Part shown: positions 8,164 through 32,593 of the stretch, piece by piece
Layout of the letters: each line of letters starts with the position of its first letter
Position numbering within the stretch: position 1 is the first letter of the stretch
NCBI GenBank assembly: GCA_020048915.1
Contig: JAIFLU010000033.1
Span: 62,001 to 126,000, forward strand
DNA: 64,000 bases
Direction: 5' to 3'
From: Bacteroidota bacterium
GTDB lineage: Bacteria > Bacteroidota > Bacteroidia > Bacteroidales > JAAUTT01
Made by a program: the position numbers and the translations under genes
Notes under the pieces: generated by a model
The model's input: only the letters and a program-made list of their open reading frames with translations
Told to the model about the DNA's origin: nothing
The model's database searches: none

Positions 8164-8964
8164 TCATTCATGTATCAACCGAATGCAAAAACCTGTTCTT
8201 TTGTGATGATGATTGTCGCCATATTTGGCAAACCAGGTATGAACGCTGGTATGATAAGCATCAGAATCGCTATACGGGGTAACACTCCACCAGTACACAC
8301 TGGTTTCAAACGCGTGAAAACTCCCTTCGTTCCATCTGCTACCTGCAGGGATAGCCGAATATCCCGATTTGTTGTTTGTTTGGGGATTATTGCCCACCAT
8401 TCCCAATGTATCCGGTAACGAATTGCCATAAGCATCTTTAACCTTGTAAGGCCAACCGGTTGTTGTTGCCATCGATTTGGCAACCTTGTTCCCTTCGGTT
8501 GTCCCATCGTAGTTGTACCCGTTGGCTATCAGGTAATCCCTGAGCACCAGTTGGTCCTCACGGGTAGGCACCCTCCATCCTTTTGGCGCAATCTTGCCGG
8601 AGCTTGCGGCGTACCAATTGTACAAAAAACCGTGCTTCTTTCCGTTTTCCTGATTGTTTTCGTAATAACAGAAACCCGGAGTGGTAAGGCTTTTCCATTC
8701 TTCGGCACCTGTAACGTTAGGGATCGGCGTACCGTCGTTGAACTTGGTTGTCCTAAGGTCTTCGACTGTCCATACCTGATTGCCGATTTTTACCGTATGG
8801 TAGATATTACCATCCGCGTCCTTCACGGTTTTCGACGAAGTGTCGGGTTTGAACGACGTAAGCATCATAGTTGTTATTGCGCTAATTAATAACACAATCA
8901 TTATTGTAAAGCCCGATTTTTTAAGGCTTTTTCCCGATAGAAGTTTACTAATTGTTGTTTCCAT
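8164..8964 (-). CDS. FISUMP-domain surface protein
   Basis: From the ATG at 8964 (METTISK), 266 residues; the TTG at 8997 in the ORF track is less likely. The leader LLSGKSLKKSGFTIMIVLL resembles the leaders of the genes at 13.2 and 14.9 kb. After about residue 45 the protein is one complete FISUMP domain (Fibrobacter succinogenes major paralogous domain, TIGR02145/PF09603): DADGNIYHTVKIGNQVWTVE, FNDGTPIPNV, LYNWYAA, PKGWRVPT, AGSRW and GFCIRLI. FISUMP proteins are extracellular, often tryptophan-rich at surface sites, and are suspected of adhesion or glycan binding; no catalytic activity is established. A palindromic element sits directly upstream. This is the simplest of three FISUMP genes here. 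Confidence 0.85.
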   Translation of the reverse strand: METTISKLLSGKSLKKSGFTIMIVLLISAITTMMLTSFKPDTSSKTVKDADGNIYHTVKIGNQVWTVEDLRTTKFNDGTPIPNVTGAEEWKSLTTPGFCYYENNQENGKKHGFLYNWYAASSGKIAPKGWRVPTREDQLVLRDYLIANGYNYDGTTEGNKVAKSMATTTGWPYKVKDAYGNSLPDTLGMVGNNPQTNNKSGYSAIPAGSRWNEGSFHAFETSVYWWSVTPYSDSDAYHTSVHTWFAKYGDNHHHKRTGFCIRLIHE

Positions 8965-8994
8965 TGTTTTAATTTTAATTACATTGTTTATTAC

Positions 8995-9119
8995 CAATAC
9001 TTCGTTAATCTTATATTTTTATGGGCTAAAGCCCTTACATTTTAACCCCAGCCTAAAGGCTGGGGTTATTAAATATCAGCGTATTACTGGCTTCAGCCCA
9101 AAACTTTAACGAAGTATTG
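8995..9119. repeat. Nested palindromic (REP/REPIN-like) element
   Basis: The 125-bp spacer is a hierarchy of inverted repeats. An outer 14-bp pair, CAATACTTCGTTAA and its exact complement, lies at 8995-9008 and 9106-9119. A central 10-bp stem with 4-base loop, AACCCCAGCC-TAAA-GGCTGGGGTT, lies at 9044-9067. Between them sit GGGCTAAAGCCC (9023-9034) and a related GGCTTCAGCCC. The design matches bacterial REP pairs mobilised by IS200/IS605-like RAYT transposases, or a small MITE. The central hairpin could also end transcription on either strand. No transposase is in the window. Confidence 0.7.
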
Positions 9120-9142: not shown

Positions 9143-10633
9143 TCATTTTTTTCCTGCGAAATACTTTGCATTAAGATAAGCTTCTGCTTTTTTTCTCTCC
9201 GTGTCGTCAAGCGCTTTGGTGTACACAATTATTTCAGCAACATTACCGGCAAACCAGCCACTGTTGTCGCCACCATGTGACCATTGTCCGATAAACCCGT
9301 TTGATGCGCAATTTTTTATTGTAGCCAGTTTGTCTGTTTGAGTCCAAACCAATTCCCCCCCGACATAGAGTTTTTCGGTTGAACCGTCATGAGTTGCTAT
9401 GGTCATTGTAGGTGAATCGCCAATAGATGCAGGCCGTTTCCAGTTGTTAATGTTAGGATTCTGACCAGTGCCGAAACGAAAGCTGACCGAATTCTGGTAC
9501 GCGGACAAGAGCACGATTCCCCACCTGGCATCAGATGTAGACTGCGGCCAATTCAGGATTGATTGCAATGTTGAATGAGAACCTCCCTCTGCCCCCTTGC
9601 CAGGTCCGGGTTCGGGCTGATATTCAGTATTCGCGCTAACAATAATGATTGTCATTGCTGTAAGTTCATTTGGGCTCCATCCGGTAAACTCGAGCACATC
9701 TCCTTTGCCATTAAAATGAATGGCTGGCTTGCCCCCAATTGCAGAATTTAATAACATGGGTTGCCCCCTTTTCAATTTCGCATGAAGGTTGGTGCCGGAT
9801 AGATCATCCCATTGCGTTACCTTGTTGTCTGAATGTGTCACTCCGCGATCGGCCCGAAACCACAACTGAAGTCCGTCTGTTGGAATTTCATTCTGTGCAA
9901 CACCCTGGTTAATGGTAACAACAGGTGCATAAAGGTCGGAGCCGTGCAGTTTGCCGTGGTCTTTACCGGGCTCTACAGGTACATTGATACTTGCTTTCGA
10001 TATTTCGATTTTTGCAGAAACCTTGATATCCGAAAAAGTACCATTCTGAATACTTGTTTTTCCGTACACGACAAGATATTTAAAGTCTTTGGCGCCGGCT
10101 TTATTATCGCGGACTGTAACTACAATATCGGTAGTGCTGAAAGAATCAACATGGGCAACATACCCTGTAATATTTCGCGGTGTAGAAACCGTATCAACAT
10201 GTAACGCATAGTTACAACAGCCATAACGCGATGCACGGATCTCCTGAATCGGTTTGCCTAACATTCCTGCCGGTTCTGCCCTACCTTTCACACGCACATA
10301 CATTCCGGTTTTAAGGTCGGAAAATGAAATTCCTTCCAGTTGTGTTGAGTCCTTCACCACCATGAATTGATAATCGAAATCTTTCCCAAACCGGTGTCCC
10401 ACAATATAGATCGAAATAACCTGCTTGCCGTTAAATGTATAAGGCGCCCTGGGTTCGATATTTCTGACCTGTTTGATATACCCTTCAATTTCGAATGGTG
10501 CCGCAGTAATGTTTGAGGCGGCAGCAAGCATAAACAACATTCCGAAAATGAGAATGATACGCTTTTTAGCGATGCCGGCCACTTCCGAAGAAAACTGGAA
10601 AACCGGCAATGAACGTCCGAAAAATGTTTTCAT
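9143..10633 (-). CDS. Exported LamG-like protein with OB-like N-terminal repeats
   Basis: About 496 residues from the ATG at 10633 (MKTFFGRSL). A long positively charged n-region precedes the hydrophobic core (IILIFGMLFMLAAAS) and a cleavage region near ITAAP. Residues about 45-240 contain two similar beta-rich units (IEGYIKQV, ITGYVAHV; MYVRVKGRA, SAKIEISKA) that look like OB-fold repeats. Residues about 255-495 form a concanavalin A-like jelly roll of LamG type (LQLWFRADRGV, VTQWDDLSG, PAIHFNG, GNVAEIIVYTKAL). LamG-type domains bind carbohydrate or protein ligands; no catalytic residues are recognised. It lies between two FISUMP genes and probably acts with them on the surface, for example in substrate capture. 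That role is inference. Confidence 0.75.
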   Translation of the reverse strand: MKTFFGRSLPVFQFSSEVAGIAKKRIILIFGMLFMLAAASNITAAPFEIEGYIKQVRNIEPRAPYTFNGKQVISIYIVGHRFGKDFDYQFMVVKDSTQLEGISFSDLKTGMYVRVKGRAEPAGMLGKPIQEIRASRYGCCNYALHVDTVSTPRNITGYVAHVDSFSTTDIVVTVRDNKAGAKDFKYLVVYGKTSIQNGTFSDIKVSAKIEISKASINVPVEPGKDHGKLHGSDLYAPVVTINQGVAQNEIPTDGLQLWFRADRGVTHSDNKVTQWDDLSGTNLHAKLKRGQPMLLNSAIGGKPAIHFNGKGDVLEFTGWSPNELTAMTIIIVSANTEYQPEPGPGKGAEGGSHSTLQSILNWPQSTSDARWGIVLLSAYQNSVSFRFGTGQNPNINNWKRPASIGDSPTMTIATHDGSTEKLYVGGELVWTQTDKLATIKNCASNGFIGQWSHGGDNSGWFAGNVAEIIVYTKALDDTERKKAEAYLNAKYFAGKK

Positions 10634-10696
10634 AACCAATTGTACTTTTTAGTTGCTATATCTGGTTGCATGAGTCAAATGAGATTAATCGATTAG

Positions 10697-13186
10697 TTAT
10701 TCCTTGTCCTTGATCAACCGGAGACCGAAGCCTGTTTCCTTTACGTGATGGCTGTCGCCCAAGTATTTGGACCAGTTATGAATACTGCTCAGCCATCCCC
10801 TGTCTGAAGCCTGTTCTGTGCTGCTCCACATGTATAAGCTTCCCGTCAAATTGTGGAAGCTACCGTCGTTCCAGCGGGCACCGTTGGGTAGACCATTGAA
10901 ACCAGTCTTGTTGTTTAACTCCGGACGCTCGCTGATCAGCAATTCTTTTTCCCAATATTTTCCTTGTTTGTCCACGATTCGATACTCCCAGCCAATTCTT
11001 CCCGCCATCGATTTACCGACCTTGTTCTCCTTGTCCTTTTCGTGATTGTTTTCGCCCTTCCATTCGGGGTATTTGGTTCCATCGCAGTTATATCCATTGT
11101 TTACCAGGTACCGGCGAAGGGTCAGTTGTTCCTCAACCGTAGGCACATGCCAGCCTTTTGGCGCAATCTTCGGATGGTTTGCGGCCCACCAGTTGTATAA
11201 TAACCCTATTTTGGCGTGTTCGGGCTTGTTGTCGTAGTAGCAACATGCAGCGGACTTAAGCTGATTCCATTCCTTGTTGTCTATCACGTTGGGGATCGGG
11301 GTGCCGTCGTTATACTTGGTGGTGCGCAGGCTTGAGGTGGTCCACACCTGATCGCCGATCTTCACCGTCTGGTAAACATTCCCGTCCGCATCCGTCACCG
11401 TTCCCGCGCAATCAATCATTTCGATGGCCATTTTGCTGGCCTCGGGTGCGGGCACATGAATCTGATAATCCAAATAGCCTTTTTTGGTGACAGTGATCAC
11501 ATCCCTGCGATAGTCAACGAAGCCTCTGTCGTTAACCTTTTTGGTTACCGGCGCAAGACCATTCAGAACCATGCTAAAATTTCCCTTTGAATCTGTCTTC
11601 GTGGATTGGCTGGTGCCTTCCAACTGCACCTTGGCTCCAGCCAAGCCGACCCCGGAGGAGTTTTTAACCGTTCCTTTGATGCTGGAAGCCTGCTCAATAG
11701 TATCGATACGCAAAAGCCGGATACAGAAACCAGACCGGTCATGATGCTGGTTGTTGCCGTATTTTGCAAACCGGCTGTGAATACTGCTCATATGCGAGCC
11801 TTCGCCTTCGCCCTTGGTAGTACTCCACCAGTAAACGCTCTGTCCCATGGCGTGGAAGCTCCCGTCGTTCCAGCGACTGCCGGTGGGGAGCGCAGTAAAA
11901 CCGGATCGGTTGTTGGTAGTCAAATCGTTGCCGGCGTTCCCCGGTGTCGGATCGGGACCCCAATCGGTTCTGGCTGTCATGGACTTGGCAACCTTGTTGT
12001 CTTTCTTGGTGCCGTCGAAGTTTAATCCAATGGCGATCAGACAGTCCCGCAGCATCATTTGCTCTTCAATGGTCGGAACTTTCCACCCCTTGGGGGCGAT
12101 CTTGCCGGAACTGGCGGCCCACCAGTTATACAACGCACCGTATTTTTTTCCGTATTCGGGGTTGTTCTCGTAATAGCAGAAGCCCGGACTAGCCAAACCT
12201 TTCCATCCGGCATCGTCGGTTACGTTGGGAATCGGGGTGCCGTCGTTGAACTTGGTAGTTCTAAGGTTTTCGACTGTCCATACCTGACTGCCAATCCTCA
12301 CCGTGTTATAGACGTTCCCATCTGCATCCGTGACGGTTTCCGAAGAAGTGGCTTTATCTACTGTTTTAAGCCCGGCAGTCCAGCGGACACCACGGACAAT
12401 TAATTCGCGAAATTCAGGACAATTATAGACTTTTTCATCGTGTCCAAGCTGAATATTGAAAACCTTGGATTTCCCATATTCTCGTGTCCAGGCAATAGGC
12501 TCATCGTTTTCAGGGTGATTTGTGGTCAACAGCACATTGTTGTCTTTTGCCCACCAGCGCCCCATGTAGGTTTCGTCGATTACCTCGAAATCCTTCATGC
12601 CCCGGGTAATCGGATGCTGATTATCCTTTACCTTGATGGGGATATTCAAGCCCTCATGAACCTTGCCGTGCGGCCAGGGTTTTCCATCTATTTCGACGTC
12701 GAAATAAATGTAGGCTGTCCCGATGATTTGATGATATTCATGCCAGCTTTGAAAAGCAGCTTGCGCGTGATGCATCACTACCAGGCCAACGCCTTTTTCC
12801 TTCATGAGCCGCACAAAGTTCTCCTGTCGTTTGGGGGATATTTTTTGTGTCATATTGTAAAGAAAGATGACATCGTAATCCCATTTACTGATGTCCTCAA
12901 ATACCTCGCTTTCATCCTTCAGGGTATACTCGGAATAATTAATGTCTACGCAATCAAAGATGCCGAAGAATGACTCGCGGTTGAAGTGATGCCCGCTTGT
13001 CACGATAAGGACATCAATTTTGTCAGGATCACCGAACGCAGTTTTACGGGAAGCTCCCTGCGCGTCAATGCTAAACAATAATGACATTATTATACTAAAT
13101 ATCAGTACAATATTTTCTGATATTTTTTTCATCCCTGTAGTATTAATACAATTCATGGAGAATAATTTACAATGATTTTTTTTCAT
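10697..13186 (-). CDS. ThuA-FISUMP-CarboxypepD_reg-FISUMP fusion protein
   Basis: An 829-residue multidomain exported protein. The leader is long (MKKNHC... then ENIVLIFSIIMSLLFSIDAQG). Residues about 58-275 are a ThuA-like (PF06283) glutamine amidotransferase-like fold: VLIVTSGHHFNRESFF, VVMHHAQAAF, HPITRG and FNIQLGHDE. Residues about 283-493 are FISUMP domain 1, about 501-590 a carboxypeptidase regulatory-like beta-sandwich (IKGTVKNSSGVGLAGAKV), and about 594-829 FISUMP domain 2. ThuA proteins accompany keto-disaccharide and trehalose metabolism and are common near DUF1080 and Gfo/Idh proteins. Coupling ThuA to two suspected adhesion modules is unusual, and no frameshift is seen. It may hold a sugar-processing domain on a surface glycan. 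The 3' neighbour is the LamG-like gene. Confidence 0.8.
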   Translation of the reverse strand: MKKNHCKLFSMNCINTTGMKKISENIVLIFSIIMSLLFSIDAQGASRKTAFGDPDKIDVLIVTSGHHFNRESFFGIFDCVDINYSEYTLKDESEVFEDISKWDYDVIFLYNMTQKISPKRQENFVRLMKEKGVGLVVMHHAQAAFQSWHEYHQIIGTAYIYFDVEIDGKPWPHGKVHEGLNIPIKVKDNQHPITRGMKDFEVIDETYMGRWWAKDNNVLLTTNHPENDEPIAWTREYGKSKVFNIQLGHDEKVYNCPEFRELIVRGVRWTAGLKTVDKATSSETVTDADGNVYNTVRIGSQVWTVENLRTTKFNDGTPIPNVTDDAGWKGLASPGFCYYENNPEYGKKYGALYNWWAASSGKIAPKGWKVPTIEEQMMLRDCLIAIGLNFDGTKKDNKVAKSMTARTDWGPDPTPGNAGNDLTTNNRSGFTALPTGSRWNDGSFHAMGQSVYWWSTTKGEGEGSHMSSIHSRFAKYGNNQHHDRSGFCIRLLRIDTIEQASSIKGTVKNSSGVGLAGAKVQLEGTSQSTKTDSKGNFSMVLNGLAPVTKKVNDRGFVDYRRDVITVTKKGYLDYQIHVPAPEASKMAIEMIDCAGTVTDADGNVYQTVKIGDQVWTTSSLRTTKYNDGTPIPNVIDNKEWNQLKSAACCYYDNKPEHAKIGLLYNWWAANHPKIAPKGWHVPTVEEQLTLRRYLVNNGYNCDGTKYPEWKGENNHEKDKENKVGKSMAGRIGWEYRIVDKQGKYWEKELLISERPELNNKTGFNGLPNGARWNDGSFHNLTGSLYMWSSTEQASDRGWLSSIHNWSKYLGDSHHVKETGFGLRLIKDKE

Positions 13187-13279
13187 GATTTTTTTTTAGT
13201 TATTAGGTTTTGGTATTTATATTTGAACTTGCCAGAGTGCTTCCTACAAGCTCCTGTTTTTCTTTCCTTTACAGTAATC

Positions 13280-14914
13280 TCATTCACGTATTAAACGAAT
13301 GCAAAAACCGGATGTCCTTTGGTGCTGAACAAAGCCGTACTTTGCCAACCGACTTTTAATATAGCTCAAGTGCGCATCATCCCCACTGCCTGGCGTCGAA
13401 CTCCACCAGTAAACGCTTTGCCCAATTGAGTGGAAACTCCCATCGTTCCAACGGCTGCCGGCAGGAAGCGCCGAGAAGCCGGTTTTGTTGTTTGTTTCCG
13501 GATTATTGCTCACCGTTCCAACATCCGGCGCCGATTCGTTACCTTCGTTTGTTGGCTTATAATTCCAGCCGGTCTTCGCTGCCATCGATTTGCCGATTTT
13601 GTTTTCCTGCGTTGTTCCATCGTAATTATAGCCGCTGGATACCAAATAGTTACTAAGCACAATTTGCTCATCAAGCGTAGGCACCCTCCACCCTTTTGGT
13701 GCAATCTTGTCGGAGCTTGCAGCATACCAATTGTACAGAATGCCGTATTTCTTTCCGTTTTCAGGATTGTTCTCGTAATAGCAGAAACCCGGAGTGGTAA
13801 GGCTTTTCCATCCTTCGGCTTCTGTAATATTGGGAATCGGCGTTCCATCGTTGAATCTGGTTGTTTTAAGGTCTTCAACAGTCCATACCTGACTGCCAAT
13901 CCTCACCGTATGATAAACATTACCATCCGCGTCCGTCACGGTTTCCGAAGATTGGGCTGAATTGAGTTGTTCCTCAGCAACAACGATTTGATTTTGAGAT
14001 TGGCCGCTGGTTTTAGGCAGGAAGTTGGCCAACCCTTTTTTCATCACTAATTTTATTTCCGCATCGGTAAGTGCGCGGCTCCAAATAGCAGCCTCATCGA
14101 TCAGCCCCTGAAATACAAAACGGGCAGTATCAAAACGCATCACCCCGCCAAGAGCTGTAATCGTTGGTGTGATGGGTTCACGCGTGTAGTTAATACGACT
14201 TGTATCCTGAATGCCATCAACATAAAGACGAGCCTTTCCGTTTTCATCCACCAAGGCGATGTGATGCCATACATCGTCGAATGCAATGAGACTTGTACGA
14301 TGATGCAAGATTAGCGTGTTGCCATTATTGGCACGCAAATACACATCCACTACACCTTCGGGCGCCCGGCGGTCGGTGCTGATGGCCACCAATGGACTGC
14401 GTAAATTTGTACTTTCAGAAAAAACTCTACCTGTCCCCTTTGACGTGTTGCCTTTGACCCACATAGCTACCGTAGAGGACTTGTGCGAGTATGCCGGTAG
14501 ACCGGTGCCATTTTTCGCAAAACATAAGAGGAGGGAATTAATACCATTGAAAGAGATGGCATTGCCTCGCTTTCCCGGAACCACATCGGCTGCAGTCAGA
14601 TTGATTGCTTGAAGATGGTTCTTGTTGCCGCTCAAGTCAGGTGTTGTTGCAGAGAGAATATCCAATGGCCAGTAGGCCACAAGTCCTTTTCGTATTTCAT
14701 GCTTGGAGGCTGCCGCAGGTGTCGCAGCGCAGCCGGTTATACAACCCAACAGAGTTATCGTTACTAAAATAGACAGTAAGGCAGTTTTGATTTTCAATGG
14801 TTTCAAAAATGCTACTATTACACTAATTATCAGCACAATTTTAATCGGCATATTTGTTAACCCTAATGTTTTAAACCATTTTCCTGATATAAGTATACAA
14901 TGAGTTTCTTTCAT
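13280..14914 (-). CDS. LamG-FISUMP fusion, probable lipoprotein
   Basis: 544 residues. The leader begins MKETHCILISGKWFKTLGLTNMP, closely matching the GH95-like gene upstream, and is followed by a second hydrophobic stretch ending in a lipobox-like LLGCITGC at about residues 56-62. It therefore looks like two leaders in tandem, with lipidation at one of the cysteines. Residues about 72-300 are a LamG/concanavalin A-like domain (GLVAYWPLD, NAISFNG, WHHIALV, GLIDEAAIWSRALTDAEI). Residues about 325-544 are a full FISUMP domain. Both modules are non-catalytic and surface-associated in other proteins, so a carbohydrate-binding or attachment role is likely. It lies 85 bp downstream of the GH95-like gene and 93 bp upstream of the ThuA-FISUMP fusion. 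Confidence 0.8.
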   Translation of the reverse strand: MKETHCILISGKWFKTLGLTNMPIKIVLIISVIVAFLKPLKIKTALLSILVTITLLGCITGCAATPAAASKHEIRKGLVAYWPLDILSATTPDLSGNKNHLQAINLTAADVVPGKRGNAISFNGINSLLLCFAKNGTGLPAYSHKSSTVAMWVKGNTSKGTGRVFSESTNLRSPLVAISTDRRAPEGVVDVYLRANNGNTLILHHRTSLIAFDDVWHHIALVDENGKARLYVDGIQDTSRINYTREPITPTITALGGVMRFDTARFVFQGLIDEAAIWSRALTDAEIKLVMKKGLANFLPKTSGQSQNQIVVAEEQLNSAQSSETVTDADGNVYHTVRIGSQVWTVEDLKTTRFNDGTPIPNITEAEGWKSLTTPGFCYYENNPENGKKYGILYNWYAASSDKIAPKGWRVPTLDEQIVLSNYLVSSGYNYDGTTQENKIGKSMAAKTGWNYKPTNEGNESAPDVGTVSNNPETNNKTGFSALPAGSRWNDGSFHSIGQSVYWWSSTPGSGDDAHLSYIKSRLAKYGFVQHQRTSGFCIRLIRE

Positions 14915-14999
14915 AATTTCAAACTTTTGAGTTTAATGGGAATCTAAAATCCATATTGATTTGATTTTTTCGGTTAGCTACTTCCTGCCAGAAACAATG

Positions 15000-17561
15000 T
15001 CAGAGAGCATTAATCGAATATTTACAACCTGCTTTTGCCGGAAAAACTATGCACTCGCCATTGCTTTTATCAATAGTACACTTAACAGTTTTATCAGATT
15101 CGGTAACAATAACCTGTCGGCCAGGCCAAGGGTTTATGATAAGGCAAGGATTGTCGCGCCGAGCCACAACTTCGAGAAAATATACTTTTTCTGCATTTTT
15201 AGCTGCCGAAACAACGAAAGCGCCCCGAGCCTGGAAATTTCGAAAAGCCACAACTTCTTCTGCTTTTACGGCCGGGAAAAGGTACATACGGCCGCTTCGG
15301 CTGTTAAGTAATGCTTCAGCATTAAAATCATCCCAAAAAGTATCATTGCCTGTTTGCCCCAGGAGAGTGAGCGCCTGACCTGTAGTACCGGCATTGGAAA
15401 GCTTTTTAGCAGTCCGAAGCATCATTTCCTTTTGTTCCTTCGGTGAATCGAGTGTAATATCATCAGATAGCAGTACAGGATATTCTGCCGCTTCGCCAAA
15501 ATGGTCGGCTTCGTAGTGAATTGGTTCTACTCCTTCGATGGCGCAATACATCGAGCCATCAGGCCCTTTCCAAACCGGATATGGGGCTAAATTTGCTGCC
15601 ACTTCACGCCATTTGCCACGCAAATCACTGTCAACACCCAGGATTTCGGAAGCTTCAGATGTCCGGTTCAAAGCCCATTTGAACATACACAGCGAACTGA
15701 TAACATCTTTGTTACGGGCAAGCCCGGCATACCATCCCCATTTTTCAGGTTCCATAGAAGGTATAATATGATAAAATCCATCGTCGCCTTTTTTTACATA
15801 AGCTGCATAGAAAATAGCCATCTCACGCATAAGCGGGTAACATTCGTTTCGTAAAACATTAATGTCGCCGCCATAATCCCATTCGTCCCATACAGGCTTG
15901 ATAATCTGCGCCATAGTTTCAAGACAAAATTCGAGGGTAAGGGTAGTATGGACAATTTTATCGGGTTTTACAGGAGGTTGGTAACCATGTAAAATTGCCA
16001 TCCCGGGCATACCGAACATGTCCCTGGCATTGTTTTTGGCGCCTTCCATCCAATGCCATACCAGGTTTTTCCACATTTTTTGATTGTCGGCCCTGTTACG
16101 TACAAATTGCATGGTGGTGAAAACTTCATTATAACATGGAGAGCTGCTCCAGTATTGAGCATCACGATCGGGATGAACATACATTGCGGTGCATTCATAT
16201 TTGCGCATATCGGTATATGTGCCGCCGCCATGACCATCTGCATAACTGCTGTAAATATTTTCTATTTTATCGGTACAACTATCACCACTCAAACCATAAA
16301 ATATACGGCCATTTTCACGTATATTATAGAAGTTGTTCCACCACAAGGTATTTTCTTTTAATACGCCATCAAACCCATCTTTTTCGGCTTTAGTTAGTCG
16401 TTCTTTGGCCATACCAATAACATCGGGGTTGTCCATAGTTGTAAAAACGGTTATCAAAGCTTCGAAATCTCCCTTTTTAGGGGCAAATGTAACTGTTGCA
16501 GCCACCCCCGGGGCACGGGCAATAAGTTCTTCGGCAGGTGGGGTACCCAATCCTTTCTTGCCTTCGGCAGTTTCAATTTTCACTTCGCCGGGGGTAATAA
16601 CCAACCCCATCATTACATATTCAAAACCTTTCGGGAAAGTCTTTTCAGGTGGCATCTGCTGCTTTATCCAAAAAAACCTGCCATCGGTTCCACAGGTAGG
16701 CGGAGCCATTGGATAATTAAAAGCGCTATCGGCTTCAGTACCCTTTTTTGTATATGTTTTACCATCTTCGTCCATGTATTTTAAATGGGAAGTATCGAAA
16801 TGACGAAATAATCGAAGCCATACCGGGGTGTTTATTCCCGAAAATTTTCCGCGAACAGCGTAAAGGTTACTGGTCATGCCCAAAACATATTGCAAGTTTG
16901 CCGTGGCATCTTTTTTTGTTATTTCCATTTCCACAAGACCATTTGCACAACATTGCTTTATCTGAGGAATGGCCGCTCCTGCCAAAGCATCCATTCCAAT
17001 AATAATTTGTCCAACGGGTTTAAGACAGGGCAATGAATACTCAAGTGGCTGTCTGTATGGGTCATAAAACCCACCCTCTTTAAGCAGGTAACCATAACCC
17101 CAGGGGCGTTGACAATCACTGGCAACACCTTTGAAACCTTTGTTTGCCGGCGAATAAGCGCCAGCAACAATTTCCTGCAATGTTGGAACATCCAGGCCGC
17201 GAGGATTGATCCGGCGATCCCAAACATCGTTCTTCGTCAAACTAATGGTAACCCTGTTTGTTGGCCCCCAGATTGTTGTGCGCATTTTCAGGTTATTGAT
17301 TGCCATTGCCTTGCCCTCCGGATAACAATTCCGGTTGGGAAGCGAATTTGCCGTATCCAACATACTGGTTAAAAATATAGATTGAGCCGCTTCACGCAAA
17401 GGAACTTCCCTTTCCCATGGCAATTGCTTATTATTGTTACATGATGTTAATGAAAATGTTATTGTAGCACAAAGTATTAGCAAAATATTTAACGGCATTT
17501 TAGTTAACTCTAATGTTTTAATGCCATTTCCCGAAATTCTCATACAATGATTTGTTTTCAT
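15000..17561 (-). CDS. GH95-like six-hairpin glycosidase (paralogue 1)
   Basis: 853 residues. The leader MKTNHCMRISGNGIKTLELTKMP is shared with the 14.9-kb gene. The signal core is followed by a lipobox-like SLTSC. The mature protein has an N-terminal beta domain beginning LPWEREVPL, an (alpha/alpha)6-type central part (CYNEVFTTMQF, WDYGGDINVLRNECYPLMREMAIFY, IIPSMEPEKWGWY) and a C-terminal beta domain (SRSGRMYLFPA, NFQARGAFVVSAA, INPWPGR). This order follows GH95 alpha-L-fucosidases/galactosidases, although the N-terminal GNGRLG-type motif is not clear, so it may be a separate, related family. It is strongly similar along its length to the 29.2-31.7 kb protein. It probably removes a side-chain sugar such as L-fucose or L-galactose. 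Confidence 0.7.
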   Translation of the reverse strand: MKTNHCMRISGNGIKTLELTKMPLNILLILCATITFSLTSCNNNKQLPWEREVPLREAAQSIFLTSMLDTANSLPNRNCYPEGKAMAINNLKMRTTIWGPTNRVTISLTKNDVWDRRINPRGLDVPTLQEIVAGAYSPANKGFKGVASDCQRPWGYGYLLKEGGFYDPYRQPLEYSLPCLKPVGQIIIGMDALAGAAIPQIKQCCANGLVEMEITKKDATANLQYVLGMTSNLYAVRGKFSGINTPVWLRLFRHFDTSHLKYMDEDGKTYTKKGTEADSAFNYPMAPPTCGTDGRFFWIKQQMPPEKTFPKGFEYVMMGLVITPGEVKIETAEGKKGLGTPPAEELIARAPGVAATVTFAPKKGDFEALITVFTTMDNPDVIGMAKERLTKAEKDGFDGVLKENTLWWNNFYNIRENGRIFYGLSGDSCTDKIENIYSSYADGHGGGTYTDMRKYECTAMYVHPDRDAQYWSSSPCYNEVFTTMQFVRNRADNQKMWKNLVWHWMEGAKNNARDMFGMPGMAILHGYQPPVKPDKIVHTTLTLEFCLETMAQIIKPVWDEWDYGGDINVLRNECYPLMREMAIFYAAYVKKGDDGFYHIIPSMEPEKWGWYAGLARNKDVISSLCMFKWALNRTSEASEILGVDSDLRGKWREVAANLAPYPVWKGPDGSMYCAIEGVEPIHYEADHFGEAAEYPVLLSDDITLDSPKEQKEMMLRTAKKLSNAGTTGQALTLLGQTGNDTFWDDFNAEALLNSRSGRMYLFPAVKAEEVVAFRNFQARGAFVVSAAKNAEKVYFLEVVARRDNPCLIINPWPGRQVIVTESDKTVKCTIDKSNGECIVFPAKAGCKYSINAL

Positions 17562-17610
17562 TTTTTTAGATTTTACATTTTATAAATTACCAAAATAATG
17601 ATTGAACCAC

Positions 17611-21765: not shown

Positions 21766-23400
21766 CTAGTTCACATCCCACCAGCAGCGTTTGGCAATTT
21801 CAGTTTCTCTTGAAACTGCTGCATCAAGACCTATTGCTGTAAGAGCACTTGTCAGATTCTCGAGGTTATTTGAACGCTCATTTTCGACGTAAGCATATCT
21901 AACCGGCATGCTTGCACTTGCTGAATTACTTGGTAAAACAAGATTCATCCTGCGTACATTAAACCAGGATTCAACAGGATTAAGGTACAATGAGACCCAC
22001 ATTTCTTCAGCGAGTCTTTGTTTTGCTGCTGCACCAGTTCCCAGAGGGGTGGCAGTGATGAATGCAGAAATTTCGTCTGCTGTTATTTTTTGAGTAGCAA
22101 GAAGGCCTGCAAATCCACTCAGATATGTCATACTGGTTGAAATTCCTGCTGAATATGCCGCATCCGCTGTAGTACCAGTGGCCCACCCTTTTAAAGTAGC
22201 TTCGGCAATCAGAAAATTCATTTCAGAAGCATTGAGAATGCATAATGGCTGATCCATCGTGAAGAGGAATGGATTTGGACTTGTATAAGTCTGATGATAG
22301 GCAGCCAGAGAAGAAGCAGGGTTGGCATTGGTTCCATGAGTCATTCCTTTAGCTGTTGTTACATCATAATTCCATTTGGTAACATCTCTCCAGTATGACT
22401 GCATATTTGATGCAGTTACTGCAGTAATATCGGGGTTAAGACGACCACCAAAAATCACTTTCTGCCGTGGATCGGCTTTTGATTTCAGGAAATCAACAAA
22501 ATACTCACCAAGTTTCATATAACGTTCAGGATCACCTGAGGGGGAACCTTCAAAAAACGAGCTGAATGGACTTTTCTCACTATTGATTGTCCCATCTTTT
22601 GTTTTAAGCACCCAGTTGTCATCGTTATTTGTAATAACACCACCGGCTATTGCTTTCTCGGTGTATGTTTTTGCCATTGCAGCATCTGCATCAGATGCAC
22701 GCATCGCGATGCGGAGCATAAGTGAATAGGCAAATTTTTTCCATTTTATTATGTCGCCATTATAAACAATATCGCGTGCCCTCGCTGCAGTTGAGTTCCC
22801 TTTCCAGTTATAAGGCACCAATGCAGCAGCAGTACTCAAAGCCTGAGCTTCAGCATCCAGTGTTTCAAGCATATATTTGTAAATATCCTCTTGCTTGTCA
22901 TATTTAGGCTTCTTAACATCGCTGATATAAGCAAGGCAGGCTTCTTTTACCGGCACATCACCATAAAAATCGGTGAGGCGCTGAATAACAGCTACTTTCA
23001 TAATCCTGGTCATAGCGAGATTATTTACCTGATTAGGAGTATTGAGTTTAACCAGATAATCCTCAAGAGCAACTGCCATCTTTAGTGTACCGTTATAAAC
23101 ACCCCATTGTGCATCATTAAGTCCCTGGTCGAATTGATAAAGTCCACCCATGAGCATGAGATTTGAATAGGTGGCATAGTACTTAACATACCCCCCCTCA
23201 ACTCTTACAGCATTGGCGCCTGTAGCTCCCCGACCATGGTTGATCAGTAGGTTTGTGAACATCATTGACATATCGGAGTTTTCGGGAGTCAGCAAATATT
23301 TTGGATCATCCAGCTCCATTAGCCCATCGGTATCGCATGCATAGCTGCCTAGCAGGATCAAAACAGCCACAGCAAATATTTTGAATTTATTGTTTTTCAT
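21766..23400 (-). CDS. SusD/RagB-like outer membrane lipoprotein (SusD-like_2 type)
   Basis: 544 residues. A lipoprotein signal ends in LLGSYAC, anchoring the protein to the outer membrane surface. The alpha-helical TPR-like scaffold includes MTRIMKVAVIQRLTDFYGDVPVKEA, FLIAEATLKGW and WVSLYLNPVESWFNVRRM. The last matches the SusD-like_2 (PF12771) subgroup rather than classical SusD. It forms the lid over its SusC partner and binds the imported oligosaccharide. The gene begins 11 bp after the susC stop and is followed by a strong terminator. The paired SusC has the VTALGIKR plug variant that usually accompanies this SusD subgroup. The ligand cannot be deduced. Confidence 0.92.
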   Translation of the reverse strand: MKNNKFKIFAVAVLILLGSYACDTDGLMELDDPKYLLTPENSDMSMMFTNLLINHGRGATGANAVRVEGGYVKYYATYSNLMLMGGLYQFDQGLNDAQWGVYNGTLKMAVALEDYLVKLNTPNQVNNLAMTRIMKVAVIQRLTDFYGDVPVKEACLAYISDVKKPKYDKQEDIYKYMLETLDAEAQALSTAAALVPYNWKGNSTAARARDIVYNGDIIKWKKFAYSLMLRIAMRASDADAAMAKTYTEKAIAGGVITNNDDNWVLKTKDGTINSEKSPFSSFFEGSPSGDPERYMKLGEYFVDFLKSKADPRQKVIFGGRLNPDITAVTASNMQSYWRDVTKWNYDVTTAKGMTHGTNANPASSLAAYHQTYTSPNPFLFTMDQPLCILNASEMNFLIAEATLKGWATGTTADAAYSAGISTSMTYLSGFAGLLATQKITADEISAFITATPLGTGAAAKQRLAEEMWVSLYLNPVESWFNVRRMNLVLPSNSASASMPVRYAYVENERSNNLENLTSALTAIGLDAAVSRETEIAKRCWWDVN

Positions 23401-23411
23401 AGTAATTCATT

Positions 23412-26400
23412 TTAGAAATTAATGCTGAGATTCAATGTAAATGAACGTGACGAAGGCAATACACGGTTGTTAATACCGGTAGCACCTCCTGTTGAAGGAT
23501 CCCCATTCGGAAGTTTGTTGTATATATCAAAGAGGTTACGGGCCACAACCGATACATTAACTAACTGTACAGGAAGTGTTTTAAGAACCGATTTTGGAAT
23601 TGTATAACCAATTGACAACTGACGGAACTTTGCATAAGAAGCATCAAAAACAACCATTTCAGAAACTCGTTTCACATAACCTTCACGATAATAATTTTCG
23701 AAGTGTTTTACGTGGTAGGGTATTTCATTTCCTGCAACAACAACATTATTGGGAAGATTTGCTGCAGGATTTGCATTAATTGTATATCCGGGAGCTGTTT
23801 TAATATCAGCATATACCGGAGCTGTTGCTGTTCCTGTATTATATACCCCCTCAAGAAATAAACCACCATCCCGTCCTGGTAAAGTTTGAATACTCTGGCC
23901 ACGTTCAACCATTTCCTGTTCTCCCTCAAAGGCAACTTTTGCACCCCACTTACCATCAATCATAGCTGACAGGCTAATTCCTTTCCATGTAATTGTTGAG
24001 GCAAAGCTAGCTCCATTTGGGTTTACCCCATACCCGAGAAGTGTCTTCTGCGCATCACGTGCCGGTCTCCAAGACTGATGAGTCTGGCCTCCATAATTGA
24101 AGGTCCATCTTTCCCAAACAGGTTGTCCGTTTTCCTTTTTTTGTGTGTACCCAAAAATTGCGTATGGCCTTGAACCAACAATCTGTTTTACATCTATCCC
24201 ACCACCTATGCCTGTGGAGCCGGCACCAACCTCTGAAACGCCCCCGAGATCAAGTATCTCTCCATCATTATGTGAGTATGCAAGATTCATTTCCCAGTTG
24301 ATTTTTCCTGTAACAGGTACAAGGGTCAACATTAATTCATGACCTTTATTCGAAATTGCACCAAGGTTTACAGTTGCACTTCCATAGCCTGAAGTGGAAG
24401 GTAGAGTAACACCAACTATATCATTTGTTGTTTTCTTATCATAGTATGAATAATCAATACCGATCCTGTTTTTGAAAAATCTGAGGTCAACTCCTGCTTC
24501 ATATTCACTTGTCTGATAAGGTAGCAGGTTTGGATTAGAAATATTTCCGGGTAAATTGAGAAGAGGAGTCCCCATATACCCGATAGCATCAAAACTATAT
24601 CCTATTTTAGTCGCATACGAACTCGACCCACCACCAACTTCAGCATAGGATGCCCTTAATTTCCCAAAGGAAACCCATTCTGGTAAAGCAAACTGGTTAG
24701 AGAATATATAGCTTACCCCTACACTTGGATAAAATATGCTGTTATTTGCAGGAGCAAGAGTGGAGAACCAGTCATTACGACCTGTGGCTGTTAAATATAC
24801 AAGGTCCTTGTAAGAAACCTCAGCACTTCCATAAAGAGAATTGATTCCCGACTGACTAAAACCAACGCTTGAATAGAGCTGTCCTGCATTTGTAACTACG
24901 TGATAGAAAGGAATTAATAAGGCATCTCCCCTGATTCCGTCACTATTGTATTTGCTGCGCGTGGAGCTTCCTCCGCCCATGGCATTAACATTAAAATCAC
25001 CAAATGTTTTATTGAATACAAGTGAGTAGTCCATGTTAATCTGAGTATCTATTGTTGTATATTCTTCAACTGATCCTGTTCCTGCCACATTACCTCTGAG
25101 GAAACCATATGCATCAATGTTTGTAACTTTGGTATTATTCGATTCGATACCAGCACGTCCGGCAATAAACAACCAAGGTGTAATGTCATATTTTATGCTT
25201 CCTGATGCCGAGATACGATCTCTCTGGTCATTCTCTGAGTCCTGGTAGGCCGACCAGTAAGGATTCTGATAGTAGTCGTTTGTACTAAAAGGTAACATCC
25301 AACCATCAGGTTTTGCACCCCATTTCGCAGTCTCACCTTTGAGCCAGTTGATATCCCATGATGTTGGAATAAGGGACAAAATCTGCATATAGCGTCCCGG
25401 ATTAGGTCTGTTTTTACTATTTGAAGTTGAATAGCTTAACCTTGCGTCGACAGTGATTTTATTCCCGAATTTACTATTTGCGTTAAGATTCACTGTCTGA
25501 CGGTTCATATTTGAATTTGGAATTGGTGAAGTGTTGCGCATGTCGGAAATCGATAAGCGGAATTTTTGCGTATCGCTACCTCCGGTGAAAGAAAAGTCGT
25601 TAGTCATTGTTGAACCTGTGCGCATAAAAGCATCCCAGTGATCTTCTTTATAACTATAAATGAGCGGTTTGGTTTGATCATCATTCCAGAAAATTCCGAG
25701 ATCCCGACCGTCATATCTTGGCCCCCAGTTCCTGTGAACTTCCTGATTCCATGTAGTCTGATAAACATCGCTGTTATCGCCATTTGATCCAGGATTTCCA
25801 TATAGTTTTTGGCGTCCTTCGAAAGGATTTATATAGTTTTCAATTGCAAAACTTCCATTGTAGGAAATTCCAATTCCCGATTGTTTTGAACCACTTTTTG
25901 TAGTAATTATAATAACACCGTTAGACGCACGCGATCCATAAAGCGCTGTGGCTGCAGCTCCTTTGAGCACACTCATAGATTCGATATCGTTAGGGTTGAT
26001 TGTTGTAAGAGCGTCTCCAAGGTCGCGTCCGCCTATACTTGATGAGGCGCGGGTAATAGGAACTCCGTCAATTACGTATAACGGATTGTTATCCCGGCTA
26101 ATAGAAGTATTTCCACGAATTATAACTCTTGATGATCCGGCCGCTCCTGTTCCCGAAACGTTTATGTCGACCCCTGCAATTTTACCCTGAAGTGAATTCA
26201 TAATGTTAATATCCGGGGCTTTACCGAATTCATCCCCTTTTATTTCAGTTGCTGAGTAACTCAATGCCTTGGTCTGTCTTTTAATTCCAAGAGCAGTTAC
26301 AACTACTTCTTCAAGACTTTTAATATCCAAAACCAGTTTAACATCAATTGTGGTTTGGTTATCAATAGTTATTTTTTCAGTTAAATAACCGATAAAAGAA

Positions 26401-26945
26401 AACACTAAAACCGCGTGGCTGGCAGAAAATTCAATGGAGTACCGGCCTTCTGAGTCGCTAACCGTTCCAAGGGTAGTACCCTCCACTGTTATGTTTACCC
26501 CGCTAATGGCCTCACCGGTTGAAATATCAGTCACCATTCCGGTTATTTTGCGTTGTTGATTTGTATAGCTTGTATCAAAATCCTTTGGAACTATAAGAAT
26601 TAGCTTATCTTGGACTATATATCCAAGGTTTCGCGAGGCTAATACTTTGTTAAGAATTTCATGAATTGAAGCATTATGGAAATTGCCATCAACTGTCAAT
26701 GAACTTTGAGCTAATTCATTTTTGTAGAAAAATGAAAAGTCAGAATTTTCCTCAATTCTTTGAAATACCTTGTCCAGTGTTTCATTTTCAAATTTTATAT
26801 CCAGCTTTGTATTCTGAGAATACGTATTGGCTGTAACCTGAAAAAGAGAAGCAATTGTTAGGATAATAGTTAGTTTCATAATTATAAATGTTTTTGAAAG
26901 TGCATAGTTTATCCTATGCCGTTGCAACAAAGCATTTTTTTTCAT
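23412..26945 (-). CDS. SusC/RagA TonB-dependent transporter with STN signalling domain
   Basis: 1177 residues. A long leader ends near ANTYSQ. An STN (secretin/TonB short N-terminal) domain at about 47-125 (IKFENETLDKVFQRIEENSDFSFFY) is followed by a CarboxypepD_reg-like domain at about 133-215 (ITGMVTDISTGEAISGVNI), a TonB plug (EEVVVTALGIKRQTK, IIRGNTSI, LYVIDGVPI, ALYGSRASNGVIIITTK) and a 22-strand barrel ending LNLSINF. It imports the glycan through the outer membrane using TonB energy. The STN domain signals to a FecR anti-sigma factor, and FecR and ECF sigma genes lie directly upstream, giving a transport-coupled induction loop. 76 bp separate it from fecR. Length and domain order are normal. 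Confidence 0.95.
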   Translation of the reverse strand: MKKNALLQRHRINYALSKTFIIMKLTIILTIASLFQVTANTYSQNTKLDIKFENETLDKVFQRIEENSDFSFFYKNELAQSSLTVDGNFHNASIHEILNKVLASRNLGYIVQDKLILIVPKDFDTSYTNQQRKITGMVTDISTGEAISGVNITVEGTTLGTVSDSEGRYSIEFSASHAVLVFSFIGYLTEKITIDNQTTIDVKLVLDIKSLEEVVVTALGIKRQTKALSYSATEIKGDEFGKAPDINIMNSLQGKIAGVDINVSGTGAAGSSRVIIRGNTSISRDNNPLYVIDGVPITRASSSIGGRDLGDALTTINPNDIESMSVLKGAAATALYGSRASNGVIIITTKSGSKQSGIGISYNGSFAIENYINPFEGRQKLYGNPGSNGDNSDVYQTTWNQEVHRNWGPRYDGRDLGIFWNDDQTKPLIYSYKEDHWDAFMRTGSTMTNDFSFTGGSDTQKFRLSISDMRNTSPIPNSNMNRQTVNLNANSKFGNKITVDARLSYSTSNSKNRPNPGRYMQILSLIPTSWDINWLKGETAKWGAKPDGWMLPFSTNDYYQNPYWSAYQDSENDQRDRISASGSIKYDITPWLFIAGRAGIESNNTKVTNIDAYGFLRGNVAGTGSVEEYTTIDTQINMDYSLVFNKTFGDFNVNAMGGGSSTRSKYNSDGIRGDALLIPFYHVVTNAGQLYSSVGFSQSGINSLYGSAEVSYKDLVYLTATGRNDWFSTLAPANNSIFYPSVGVSYIFSNQFALPEWVSFGKLRASYAEVGGGSSSYATKIGYSFDAIGYMGTPLLNLPGNISNPNLLPYQTSEYEAGVDLRFFKNRIGIDYSYYDKKTTNDIVGVTLPSTSGYGSATVNLGAISNKGHELMLTLVPVTGKINWEMNLAYSHNDGEILDLGGVSEVGAGSTGIGGGIDVKQIVGSRPYAIFGYTQKKENGQPVWERWTFNYGGQTHQSWRPARDAQKTLLGYGVNPNGASFASTITWKGISLSAMIDGKWGAKVAFEGEQEMVERGQSIQTLPGRDGGLFLEGVYNTGTATAPVYADIKTAPGYTINANPAANLPNNVVVAGNEIPYHVKHFENYYREGYVKRVSEMVVFDASYAKFRQLSIGYTIPKSVLKTLPVQLVNVSVVARNLFDIYNKLPNGDPSTGGATGINNRVLPSSRSFTLNLSINF

Positions 26946-27021: not shown

Positions 27022-27993
27022 TTACTTAACCGTAATAGTAATTTTACGTAGATTAGTTCTTTTGTAATTTATTGGCATATAGATCTTTATAGCATCCAGT
27101 ACCTGCCAAATTGTTTCTTCGTTTTTGAATGTTCCTGTGAAATTCACCTCCTTTCCAGTTTTATTTTCTATTGTGATATCCAGATCGTACCAGTTTTCCA
27201 GTCTTTTAATTAATTCAGTTAAAGGAATGTTTTTAAAAGTAAAATTATTCTCTACCCATCCTATAGAAAGAGAAGAGGTTACATTTTTTGTTTCCATTTC
27301 TTTTCCAGTTAAAACAAGCATTTGTTCAGGTTTTAAAATCCTTTGTAAACCAGATGAATTTACTTTAACACTCCCTTCAATCAATGTTATTTCATTTCGT
27401 CCAAATTCCTTGTAAGCCATCACATTGAATTTTGTGCCTAAAACGGTAACATTGCAATCCTTAGTTTTTACTATGAAAGGCGTTTTTTCCGAATGCGCTA
27501 CCTCAAAATACGCTTCGCCTGTAAGCTCAACCTTACGCTCTTTATCTTCAAACAAATGATAAACAAGCTTCGAATTGGCATTTAGCCATATTTTCGACCC
27601 ATCGGGCAAAGTTACAGTGGACTTTTTCCCCCGCGGAGTTTCAAATACCAGCGTTTTTTGTGTATTGTTTCTTTTCGAAAAGTTAGTTGTTAATAAAACT
27701 CCAAGGTATAGGCCGATGAGAAATAATGCAGCTATTGAAGCTGCTTTTATCCAGATATTCCCTATTCTTTGGGTAGTTATTCTTTTTATGTTTATTTTAT
27801 ATTGTAAGCTATTCCAGTTGCGGTTAACCAGTTCACTCATTTCCGGATCTTGGTTCCAATTGCGCTTTTCTTCTTCAAATATTTTTCTATTTTCCTCTTT
27901 TTTTAAGAAATCCAATAGGTACTCATATTCTCCTTCAACAAGCTTTCCTTTAAAGTACCTTCGAATAATTTCAATATTTTCCCGTTGTTCCAT
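27022..27993 (-). CDS. FecR-family anti-sigma factor (DUF4974)
   Basis: About 323 residues from the ATG at 27993; the TTG just before it in the ORF track is unlikely. The cytoplasmic N-terminal part (about 1-80) would bind the ECF sigma factor. One membrane segment (ASIAALFLIGLYLGVLL) follows. The periplasmic FecR domain holds TPRGKKSTVTLPDGSKIWLN, LTGEAYFEV, TPFIVKTKD and VLGTKFNV. The C-terminal DUF4974 region (FKNIPLTELIKRLENWYDLDI) is itself STN-like and is expected to contact the STN domain of SusC. It keeps the sigma factor inactive until SusC is loaded. It is separated from the sigma gene by 400 bp containing a large palindrome, so the two may be transcribed separately. Confidence 0.92.
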   Translation of the reverse strand: MEQRENIEIIRRYFKGKLVEGEYEYLLDFLKKEENRKIFEEEKRNWNQDPEMSELVNRNWNSLQYKINIKRITTQRIGNIWIKAASIAALFLIGLYLGVLLTTNFSKRNNTQKTLVFETPRGKKSTVTLPDGSKIWLNANSKLVYHLFEDKERKVELTGEAYFEVAHSEKTPFIVKTKDCNVTVLGTKFNVMAYKEFGRNEITLIEGSVKVNSSGLQRILKPEQMLVLTGKEMETKNVTSSLSIGWVENNFTFKNIPLTELIKRLENWYDLDITIENKTGKEVNFTGTFKNEETIWQVLDAIKIYMPINYKRTNLRKITITVK

Positions 27994-28395
27994 CAATATT
28001 AGTTCTTTATTACAATAACTGATTATTGGTCATTATACCCATCATCGAAAAGATGAAAAGTTAAAAAAATCACTATTGTCCAGTAAAAAATATTTATAAG
28101 AATTAATGAATAGATTTACCTTTGGTGAGATTGCTACGCTAAGTTCTCATTACATTCGAAATAGCAATGAAGTTTTTAGGTTAGGGGAGGGGGGCTAGTG
28201 GGCGGCTTTGCCGCCCACTAGCCCACCTCCATTTTTAAGTCCTATAAAAGCCTTGTCATTTCGACCGCAGGGAGAAATCTACTATTTTAACCGGACACCA
28301 ATGAAAAAAATCTATATTAAATAAAGTGTTGTATTATAATAATTATACAGGAAATATATTTCGAGACTAACTTAGGGCAGGTATTTATATCAGTT
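27994..28395. other. Non-coding region between sigma and fecR genes, with palindromes
   Basis: No gene is visible. It contains a 14-bp perfect stem flanked by two arms that look like inverted copies of a short intergenic repeat (listed separately). The AT-rich 3' part probably holds the fecR promoter, but I find no clear -33/-7 pair. Confidence 0.6.
28126..28280. repeat. REP-like palindromic element with 14-bp perfect stem
   Basis: GGGCTAGTGGGCGG (28192-28205) pairs perfectly with CCGCCCACTAGCCC (28211-28224) around a 5-base loop; GGAGG/CCTCC extends the stem beyond one mismatch. On either side lie GAGATTGCTACGC...TTCGAAATAGCAATGA (from 28126) and GTCATTTCGACCGCAGGGAG (from 28255). These read like opposed copies of the CGAAATGAC-type repeat I associate with intergenic regions of Bacteroidota genomes. 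The hairpin lacks a U-tract but could attenuate transcription between sigma and fecR. Confidence 0.6.
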
Positions 28396-29007
28396 CTACA
28401 GATTTTTTAGAACAAGTATAACGATAGCAATTGGAAACTCATCTGAAAATCCCTGTCTGAAAGAGAACAGCGCTCTTTTCAGATGCCTTTCAACATTCTT
28501 GATATTGATATGAAGTTTTTCAGCAATTTCTTTGTTCTTCATTCCATTTACCCGGCTTAGTAAAAATACTTCACGACAACGATCGGGCAAATGACGGATG
28601 ACGTTATTGATCTTTAATTTTAATTCTTTTTCAATTAACAAATATGGTTCGTCACCAACGAAATCTATTCTGTATAGCTCCTCGTATTTGTTAGAAATTT
28701 CATATTCCTGTAACCTTGAATTTATAATCCTGATATGCTTAATATAGTCAATGCACCTGTTGCGAACCAGCCGAAACAAATAAGCTTCAATATTTATACT
28801 TTCAATCTTTTCTTTTATTTCCCAAATCTTCAGAAATACATCCTGGACTATGTCCTGGGATATCCCACCGTCCTGAATAATTTTTCTTGCAAAATCATTT
28901 AATCGGGGGAAATATATTGCAAAAAGCTGTTCAAGCGCTTTCTGATCTCCTTCTCTGATCCTGTCAAAGAGTTCATCTGCGATATCGTTTTTTACAAAAT
29001 CTCGCAT
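28396..29007 (-). CDS. ECF sigma factor (Bacteroidota FecI-like)
   Basis: 203 residues in the usual ECF range. Region 2 is seen as LEQLFAIYFPRLNDFARKII, SQDIVQDVFLKIWE and YLFRLVRNRCIDYIKH. Region 4 is seen as RHLPDRCREVFLLSRVNGMKNKEIAEKLHINIKNVERHLKRAL. It directs RNA polymerase to the promoter of the downstream SusCD pair and is held by the FecR protein encoded next. It ends in a hydrophobic tail (FPIAIVILVLKNL), common in this subgroup. It sits 166 bp downstream of the GH95-like gene, so read-through from the GH run is possible. Confidence 0.93.
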   Translation of the reverse strand: MRDFVKNDIADELFDRIREGDQKALEQLFAIYFPRLNDFARKIIQDGGISQDIVQDVFLKIWEIKEKIESINIEAYLFRLVRNRCIDYIKHIRIINSRLQEYEISNKYEELYRIDFVGDEPYLLIEKELKLKINNVIRHLPDRCREVFLLSRVNGMKNKEIAEKLHINIKNVERHLKRALFSFRQGFSDEFPIAIVILVLKNL

Positions 29008-31780: not shown

Positions 31781-32593
31781 TTATTTCAGTGAGCGAACCC
31801 AAATGTTTCGGAAACGTACAGCGCAATAGTGCGCGGGTAAACTTATCGGACCAACAGAATCAGTCTTCTTGTAAGCTGGGAATTGCCGGTGACGTGTCTC
31901 ACCGTAAATTTCCTGATCAAGATGAACCAACACTCCGTTGTGCATGAGAGTGAGCCGTGCTGGCTTTACCAATTTCTCATTTTCGAAAACTGGAACTTTG
32001 AAAAATATATCGAAATCCTGCCATTCGCCAGGTTTTCGGCATGCATTTACCAAAGGAGGGGTCTGCCCATAAATGGCGGCGCACTGTCCATCCGCGTAAA
32101 GAGGTGTTTTGTAGTTGAAGGAGTTAAATATTTGTATTTCAAATTGATCCATCAGCGCAACACCATTGTTGCCATCGCCATACCAGGGGCCCTTAAAATC
32201 GGTTGGCACCAACCATTCGGCATGAACCTGAACATCGCCAAAAGAATCTTTAGTAACTAACTTGCCTTCTCCGGCGACAATCTGACCCTCCTCAATCTTC
32301 CATGATGTTGAAATCTGCCAGGCCGACAAATCTTTGCCGTTGAACAGGATAACCGCATCGGAAGGAGGTGGTACAGAAAGGCCTGCAGGCCCAACCTGAA
32401 TTATCGGCGGGAGTGGTCGGTCAGGGTCGTGCATAAAGAATTCACACCAGGGCAGTTTTGGGGTGTCCTTGTATCCAAAAACTCCGGAACCATCTTTGGC
32501 TTTTGCCATATCAGCCTGGGCCAGCACAGTGGCAATTCCAAAGATAAAAATGGCCAGAGTGTTTAATGTAATGAACTTTAATGGATTTTTCAT
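31781..32593 (-). CDS. DUF1080 / 3-keto-disaccharide hydrolase-like exported protein
   Basis: 270 residues with a signal peptide (LAIFIFGIATVLAQ). After it comes a concanavalin-like DUF1080 domain (3-keto-disaccharide hydrolase family, PF06439): AVILFNGKDLSAWQIS, IVAGEGKLVTKDSFGDVQVHAEWL, GNNGVALMDQFEIQIFNS, EWQDFDIFF and LTLMHNGVLVHLDQEI. Characterised members cleave glycosides after the sugar has been oxidised at C3. No Gfo/Idh/MocA-type glycoside 3-dehydrogenase is in the window, so the oxidation step must be elsewhere if the pathway is real. The four exported TIM-barrel proteins and the ThuA-like domain are typical companions. It lies inside the GH run between the GH43 and GH95-like genes. 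Confidence 0.85.
   Translation of the reverse strand: MKNPLKFITLNTLAIFIFGIATVLAQADMAKAKDGSGVFGYKDTPKLPWCEFFMHDPDRPLPPIIQVGPAGLSVPPPSDAVILFNGKDLSAWQISTSWKIEEGQIVAGEGKLVTKDSFGDVQVHAEWLVPTDFKGPWYGDGNNGVALMDQFEIQIFNSFNYKTPLYADGQCAAIYGQTPPLVNACRKPGEWQDFDIFFKVPVFENEKLVKPARLTLMHNGVLVHLDQEIYGETRHRQFPAYKKTDSVGPISLPAHYCAVRFRNIWVRSLK

Follow-up and report, generated by a model that had tools for sequence, protein, structure and literature searches.

A ThuA-FISUMP fusion in a polysaccharide-utilisation locus of a Bacteroidota bacterium, a possible secreted enzyme of oxidised-glycoside turnover

The protein considered here is encoded on the minus strand at positions 10697-13186 of a 64,000-nucleotide window (the whole stretch of DNA that was analysed, positions 62,001 to 126,000 of contig JAIFLU010000033.1, assembly GCA_020048915.1) from a Bacteroidota bacterium, and it joins a ThuA domain to two FISUMP domains in 829 residues. 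It resembles the ThuA family (PF06283; solved members 4e5v, 4jqs/4pxy and 1t0b) in its profile match, its predicted fold and the residues it conserves, but differs by the FISUMP fusion, by a serine at the otherwise invariant Gly64 and by having its nearest kin in other phyla. FISUMP (Fib_succ_major) domains have been called putative cellulose-binding or cohesin-like (PMC5541161) and occur among the putative variable proteins of diversity-generating retroelements (DGRs) (PMC4159848), where the DGR literature suggests a C-type-lectin-like fold; our literature search under the name FISUMP found nothing. Like other proteins of this kind (PF09603, TIGR02145) the 829-residue protein contains full FISUMP domains above the cut-off, two in number, whereas the other FISUMP proteins examined have no ThuA domain. 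The levan surface glycan-binding protein (SGBP) of Bacteroides thetaiotaomicron likewise places a ThuA-like fold in a Bacteroidota polysaccharide-utilisation locus (PUL) (PMC7618045), but it is lipidated and has Ig-like N-terminal domains and no FISUMP, whereas in our protein ThuA is N-terminal and no lipobox is seen. Finally, in Planctomycetota and Hydrogenedentota ThuA domains of the same clade as ours occur in oxidised-sugar company, as fusions (loci L138 and L150) or in a gene row (L136); there the partner is PF06439, while here it is FISUMP and PF06439 is a separate gene. We tentatively favour, at somewhat under an even chance, a secreted enzyme of the ThuA family that takes part in the turnover of oxidised (3-keto) glycosides and that recombination has linked to FISUMP modules serving to hold glycan.

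The frame opens with ATG and runs through 829 codons without an internal stop, and the original prediction of an uninterrupted ThuA-FISUMP-CarboxypepD-FISUMP frame is borne out by the open reading frame (ORF), Pfam and NCBIfam. Pfam matched ThuA at residues 86-270 (E 1.6e-30; 107.4 bits against a curated cut-off of 33.4), Fib_succ_major (PF09603) in two stretches (E 3.9e-63, the best at residues 296-493) and CarboxypepD_reg at residues 502-575 (E 6.2e-10), and since all three exceed their curated cut-offs, chance matches are excluded. NCBIfam (TIGR02145) likewise yields two FISUMP stretches. From the N to the C terminus the protein consists of a leader, ThuA, FISUMP-1, CarboxypepD_reg and FISUMP-2, positioned as follows.

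10697..13186 (-): the complete 829-residue open frame with leader, ThuA, FISUMP-1, CarboxypepD_reg and FISUMP-2 (ORF, Pfam, NCBIfam)
13052..13186 (-): AT-rich N-terminal leader, residues 1-45 (repeat comparison, composition, inspection by eye)
12362..13051 (-): ThuA domain, residues 46-275 (Pfam, model, PDB matches, tree, conserved columns)
11699..12349 (-): FISUMP-1 (Fib_succ_major), residues 280-496 (Pfam, model)
11462..11683 (-): CarboxypepD_reg beta-sandwich, residues 502-575 (Pfam)
10700..11416 (-): FISUMP-2, residues 591-829 (Pfam, tree, pairwise comparison)

No 31-mer is repeated within the window, and the longest run of identical bases that the local FISUMP copies have in common is 30; on present evidence the frame is not an assembly collapse.

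The ThuA part was modelled with a pLDDT (predicted local distance difference test) of 92.5. Its fold is glutamine-amidotransferase-like, as in the solved ThuA-like proteins, which were also its top PDB matches (4e5v with E 7e-15 and a template-modelling score, TM, of 0.76, followed by 4jqs/4pxy and 1t0b). Thirty columns are conserved across 90% or more of 85 relatives, and 28 of these are kept, including H66, H139, H140, W148, H191, D204-E205, Y207, W233 and G248-H249, that is, all conserved histidines, the D-E pair, the tyrosine and the GH motif; the two departures are G64S and L138M. The structure prediction that had been proposed as a check on the ThuA pocket gave a confidently folded domain, in which the family's conserved residues are largely kept. 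The nearest relatives are mostly from Planctomycetota and Hydrogenedentota and 55-42% identical (55, 47, 47, 46% and so on, with Sedimentisphaerales at 55 and 47%), and those from Bacteroidota reach about 38% at best, save one at 43% labelled Bacteroidetes. In the tree the domain falls into a 20-row clade, mostly of Planctomycetota and Hydrogenedentota, with support 99, next to Sedimentisphaerales locus L136. Constraining it to either Bacteroidota-rich group was about 50 log units worse, yet borderline by the approximately unbiased (AU) test (p 0.063 and 0.039). Transfer of the ThuA domain between phyla is thus likely, short of proven. The genome has four ThuA matches in total; another of its ThuA genes (G000:C10:11179-14536) stands directly after two Gfo/Idh/MocA genes. 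Hydrogenedentota also have tandem double ThuA proteins (L144:5143-6660, L170:5203-6645 and L175:3351-4772).

The original prediction had tied ThuA to keto-disaccharide metabolism, and this is supported by what the closest ThuA relatives have beside them or fused to them. Proteins of family PF06439 are hydrolases, or proposed hydrolases, of 3-keto-disaccharides such as 3-keto-trehalose and 3'-keto-lactose, working after a dehydrogenase step (PMC9007349). In L136 Gfo/Idh/MocA, PF06439 and ThuA genes stand in a row, L138:5299-6660 is a PF06439-ThuA fusion in one protein with a sulfatase nearby, and L150:5923-9297 is a ThuA-PF06439-HEAT fusion; L139 has ThuA, AP_endonuc_2 and Gfo/Idh/MocA together, and L143 has Gfo/Idh/MocA followed by ThuA. 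By a simple similarity count over the 80 nearest ThuA loci, with the expectation taken from the density in this genome, PF06439 was found near 7 (1.8 expected) and Gfo/Idh/MocA near 9 (3.9 expected). Because of this company, and because the fusion lies within a PUL, 3-keto-glycosides are the substrate class that we would propose. Across Planctomycetota and Hydrogenedentota such PF06439 and ThuA fusions are found with either domain first (L138, L150). This genome itself has 15 PF06439 and 33 Gfo/Idh/MocA matches. Two of its proteins contain a double PF06439 (G000:C133:757-2037 and C283:22251-23453, in frames of 505 and 1137 residues), the former directly upstream of a Gfo/Idh/MocA match.

Nine FISUMP matches were found in the genome, four of them in this locus; these four group in a clade of their own (support 99) and are mutually 52-68% identical. 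FISUMP-1 is 67 and 65% identical to the FISUMP of the neighbouring genes, and FISUMP-2 is the most diverged of the four copies. Nonsynonymous divergence (dN) between local pairs is 0.2-0.44, far below a synonymous divergence (dS) of 1 to near saturation throughout; for the two modules against their local paralogues dN/dS is roughly 0.1-0.2, with most dS values near saturation. Judged by these ratios, the local clade is under purifying selection. That FISUMP-1 is simply a recent local copy of a neighbour's module was rejected, synonymous divergence being near saturation and GC content at third codon positions (GC3) being different. The FISUMP model has a pLDDT of 97.3. None of its PDB matches, headed by 4eps, a Bdellovibrio domain and C-type lectins, reaches significance, E being 0.4 or higher throughout. 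A search by sequence profile found no solved PDB chain matching FISUMP, and models of viral FISUMP-containing proteins do match. Holding a ligand is a reasonable role to suggest for these modules.

Judged by eye the leader is signal-peptide-like. No lipobox was found by a crude pattern census, which had overlooked the leader of the SusD-like lipoprotein; the leader of the 829-residue protein was therefore also inspected by eye, and no cysteine follows its hydrophobic stretch. About 130 bases of 5' leader are homologous across three adjacent genes (13078-13207, 14806-14935 and 17453-17582 of the window), whose three pairings rank first in similarity among 435 pairs of gene starts, yet the bodies behind them are unrelated (ThuA-FISUMP, LamG-FISUMP and GH95-like). 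The step in GC content from leader (0.20) to body (0.45) in the 829-residue gene is the largest among 27 genes, and the GC3 values of FISUMP-1 and FISUMP-2 (0.65 and 0.64) are higher than in any of the 92 stretches of the locus used for comparison. Because the leaders are alike while the bodies differ, and because of the GC step and the high GC3, we read the gene as a mosaic in which a resident AT-rich leader would have come to precede a body that has a history of its own. The union of ThuA and FISUMP may have taken place at this locus or elsewhere, and any order of the recombination events would be conjectural.

Searches with the full protein or with ThuA plus FISUMP found no further match covering the two in 5 family, 247 and 393 order, 395 class and 396 phylum genomes; these samples overlap, and scoring was limited in most genomes to the four best candidates. 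None of the 80 nearest ThuA loci, from a collection of 85k species, has a FISUMP frame, and a class-wide ThuA search gave no FISUMP-bearing ThuA among the loci read. Long-frame ThuA proteins of the class and order (L117, L118, L120-L122 and L124) have extensions without FISUMP, and no plasmid record matches 80% of the query at a single place. The fusion is unique in these samples, contrary to the common occurrence that would have spoken against the original prediction; what is new is the combination of ThuA and FISUMP, the parts and their likely job being of known kinds.

The original prediction did not mention the PUL around the gene, the three-gene homologous leader or the FISUMP genes on both sides (13280-14914 and 8164-8997). 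The PUL contains an extracytoplasmic function (ECF) sigma factor with FecR, SusC/SusD, many glycosidases and a 3-keto-disaccharide hydrolase. Its minus-strand run reads ECF sigma (28396-29007), FecR (27022-27996), SusC, SusD, RraA-like, enolase-superfamily dehydratase, SBF transporter and GH95-like, and continues with LamG-FISUMP, the 829-residue gene, a 498-residue LamG-like protein, a FISUMP protein, AP_endonuc_2, PTE and alpha-L-arabinofuranosidase. Further upstream on the same strand are genes for GH95-like, PF06439, GH43, GH29, GH5, GH28 and GH31 proteins (GH, glycoside hydrolase), and AP_endonuc_2 genes number four in the PUL. The 829-residue gene lies on the same strand as the SusD-like gene and about 8.6 kb downstream of it. 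Judging from the enzyme set, the target is a complex glycan of plants, probably one resembling pectin or hemicellulose. Two GH95-like genes (15000-17561 and 29174-31732) are present, and in each the match covers the GH95 catalytic profile only in part.

8164..8997 (-): stand-alone FISUMP protein (Pfam)
9143..10639 (-): neighbour with weak DUF5666 and LamG_3 matches (Pfam, below curated cut-offs)
13280..14914 (-): LamG_3 and FISUMP neighbour, leader homologous to that of the 829-residue gene (Pfam, leader comparison)
15000..17561 (-): GH95-like protein with lipobox and homologous leader (Pfam, leader comparison, lipobox pattern)
21766..26945 (-): SusD-like and SusC-like pair
27022..29007 (-): FecR anti-sigma and ECF sigma factor
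31781..32593 (-): 3-keto-disaccharide hydrolase (PF06439) of the same PUL (Pfam)

In the reading that we favour, the gene would have been assembled from a leader of the neighbours' type, a ThuA domain of the Planctomycetota/Hydrogenedentota type and FISUMP modules of the neighbours' private clade. Its product, presumably secreted and encoded in a plant-glycan PUL of a Bacteroidota bacterium, would use its ThuA domain to act on an oxidised glycoside (3-keto) or a sugar related to it, alongside enzymes such as the PF06439 hydrolase, while the two FISUMP modules, with the CarboxypepD_reg sandwich as spacer, may hold the enzyme near the glycan or partner proteins. The original idea of a sugar-modifying domain anchored on its substrate is accordingly kept as plausible, against which stand the lack of a solved FISUMP relative, lectin-fold matches below significance, a leader without lipobox and the fact that a ThuA-like fold alone can be a mere glycan binder (PMC7618045). 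Several points weigh against the enzyme reading as a whole. Of the genome's 33 Gfo/Idh/MocA matches none is on the 149-kb contig, the PF06439 gene is 18 kb from the 829-residue gene, and the PF06439 enrichment is a small count against a crude expectation. The change of the invariant G64 to serine and the long ThuA branch (0.98) could mean changed or lost activity. As the leader has no lipobox, the protein may stay in the periplasm, at a distance from the polymer. No ThuA mechanism was found in the literature searched, where ThuA queries mostly returned unrelated words, and none is established by this analysis.

The main rival, which we regard as possible but somewhat doubtful, is that the protein is a non-catalytic glycan binder whose ThuA-like and FISUMP domains bind sugar, the oligosaccharide being passed to SusC/SusD or to periplasmic enzymes. 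In the B. thetaiotaomicron SGBP, the domain that binds levan has a ThuA-like fold, reported to be similar to 1T0B (PMC7618045), which also matches our ThuA model; SusC/SusD lie about 9-14 kb upstream, the neighbouring genes bear LamG and FISUMP modules, and G64S together with the long branch would fit a changed use. On the other hand, the 28 kept columns include all conserved histidines, the D-E pair, the tyrosine and the GH motif, SGBPs are lipoproteins whereas this leader has no lipobox, and the nearest ThuA relatives accompany oxidised-sugar enzymes. It is improbable, in our view, that the gene is a one-off recombination product in which one parental part functions and the other domains are passengers: the fusion is seen in one genome only and the GC3 of its FISUMP modules makes the body look foreign, but the low dN/dS of these modules, the intact frame and the kept ThuA residues speak against it. 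A chimera of the metagenome bin is very unlikely, for although the assembly consists of 317 contigs and the body differs in composition from the leader, the frame is open across all junctions, long shared or repeated runs are lacking as described above, and the neighbours carry the same leader and FISUMP clade. Hardly credible is a diversified receptor with its FISUMP ends as DGR targets, since, despite the presence of Fib_succ_major among putative DGR variable proteins and of two reverse-transcriptase matches in the genome, comparison of both reverse-transcriptase loci with the window gave no template-like stretch, only 16-29-base matches, and the local FISUMP differences are spread across the whole module and not confined to a short variable end.

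A bolder form of the enzyme reading, which we consider rather unlikely, is that of a private bifunctional protein, where a ThuA enzyme captured across phyla behind a resident leader processes oxidised ends while lectin-like FISUMP modules hold the glycan; if true, this would be an enzyme of oxidised sugars that carries binding modules itself. ThuA domains are found widely, and the fusion of one with likely binding modules in a PUL, together with the company of its kin, points to 3-keto-glycosides as substrate class. As the 829-residue gene illustrates, PUL proteins may be rebuilt from common leaders and modules.
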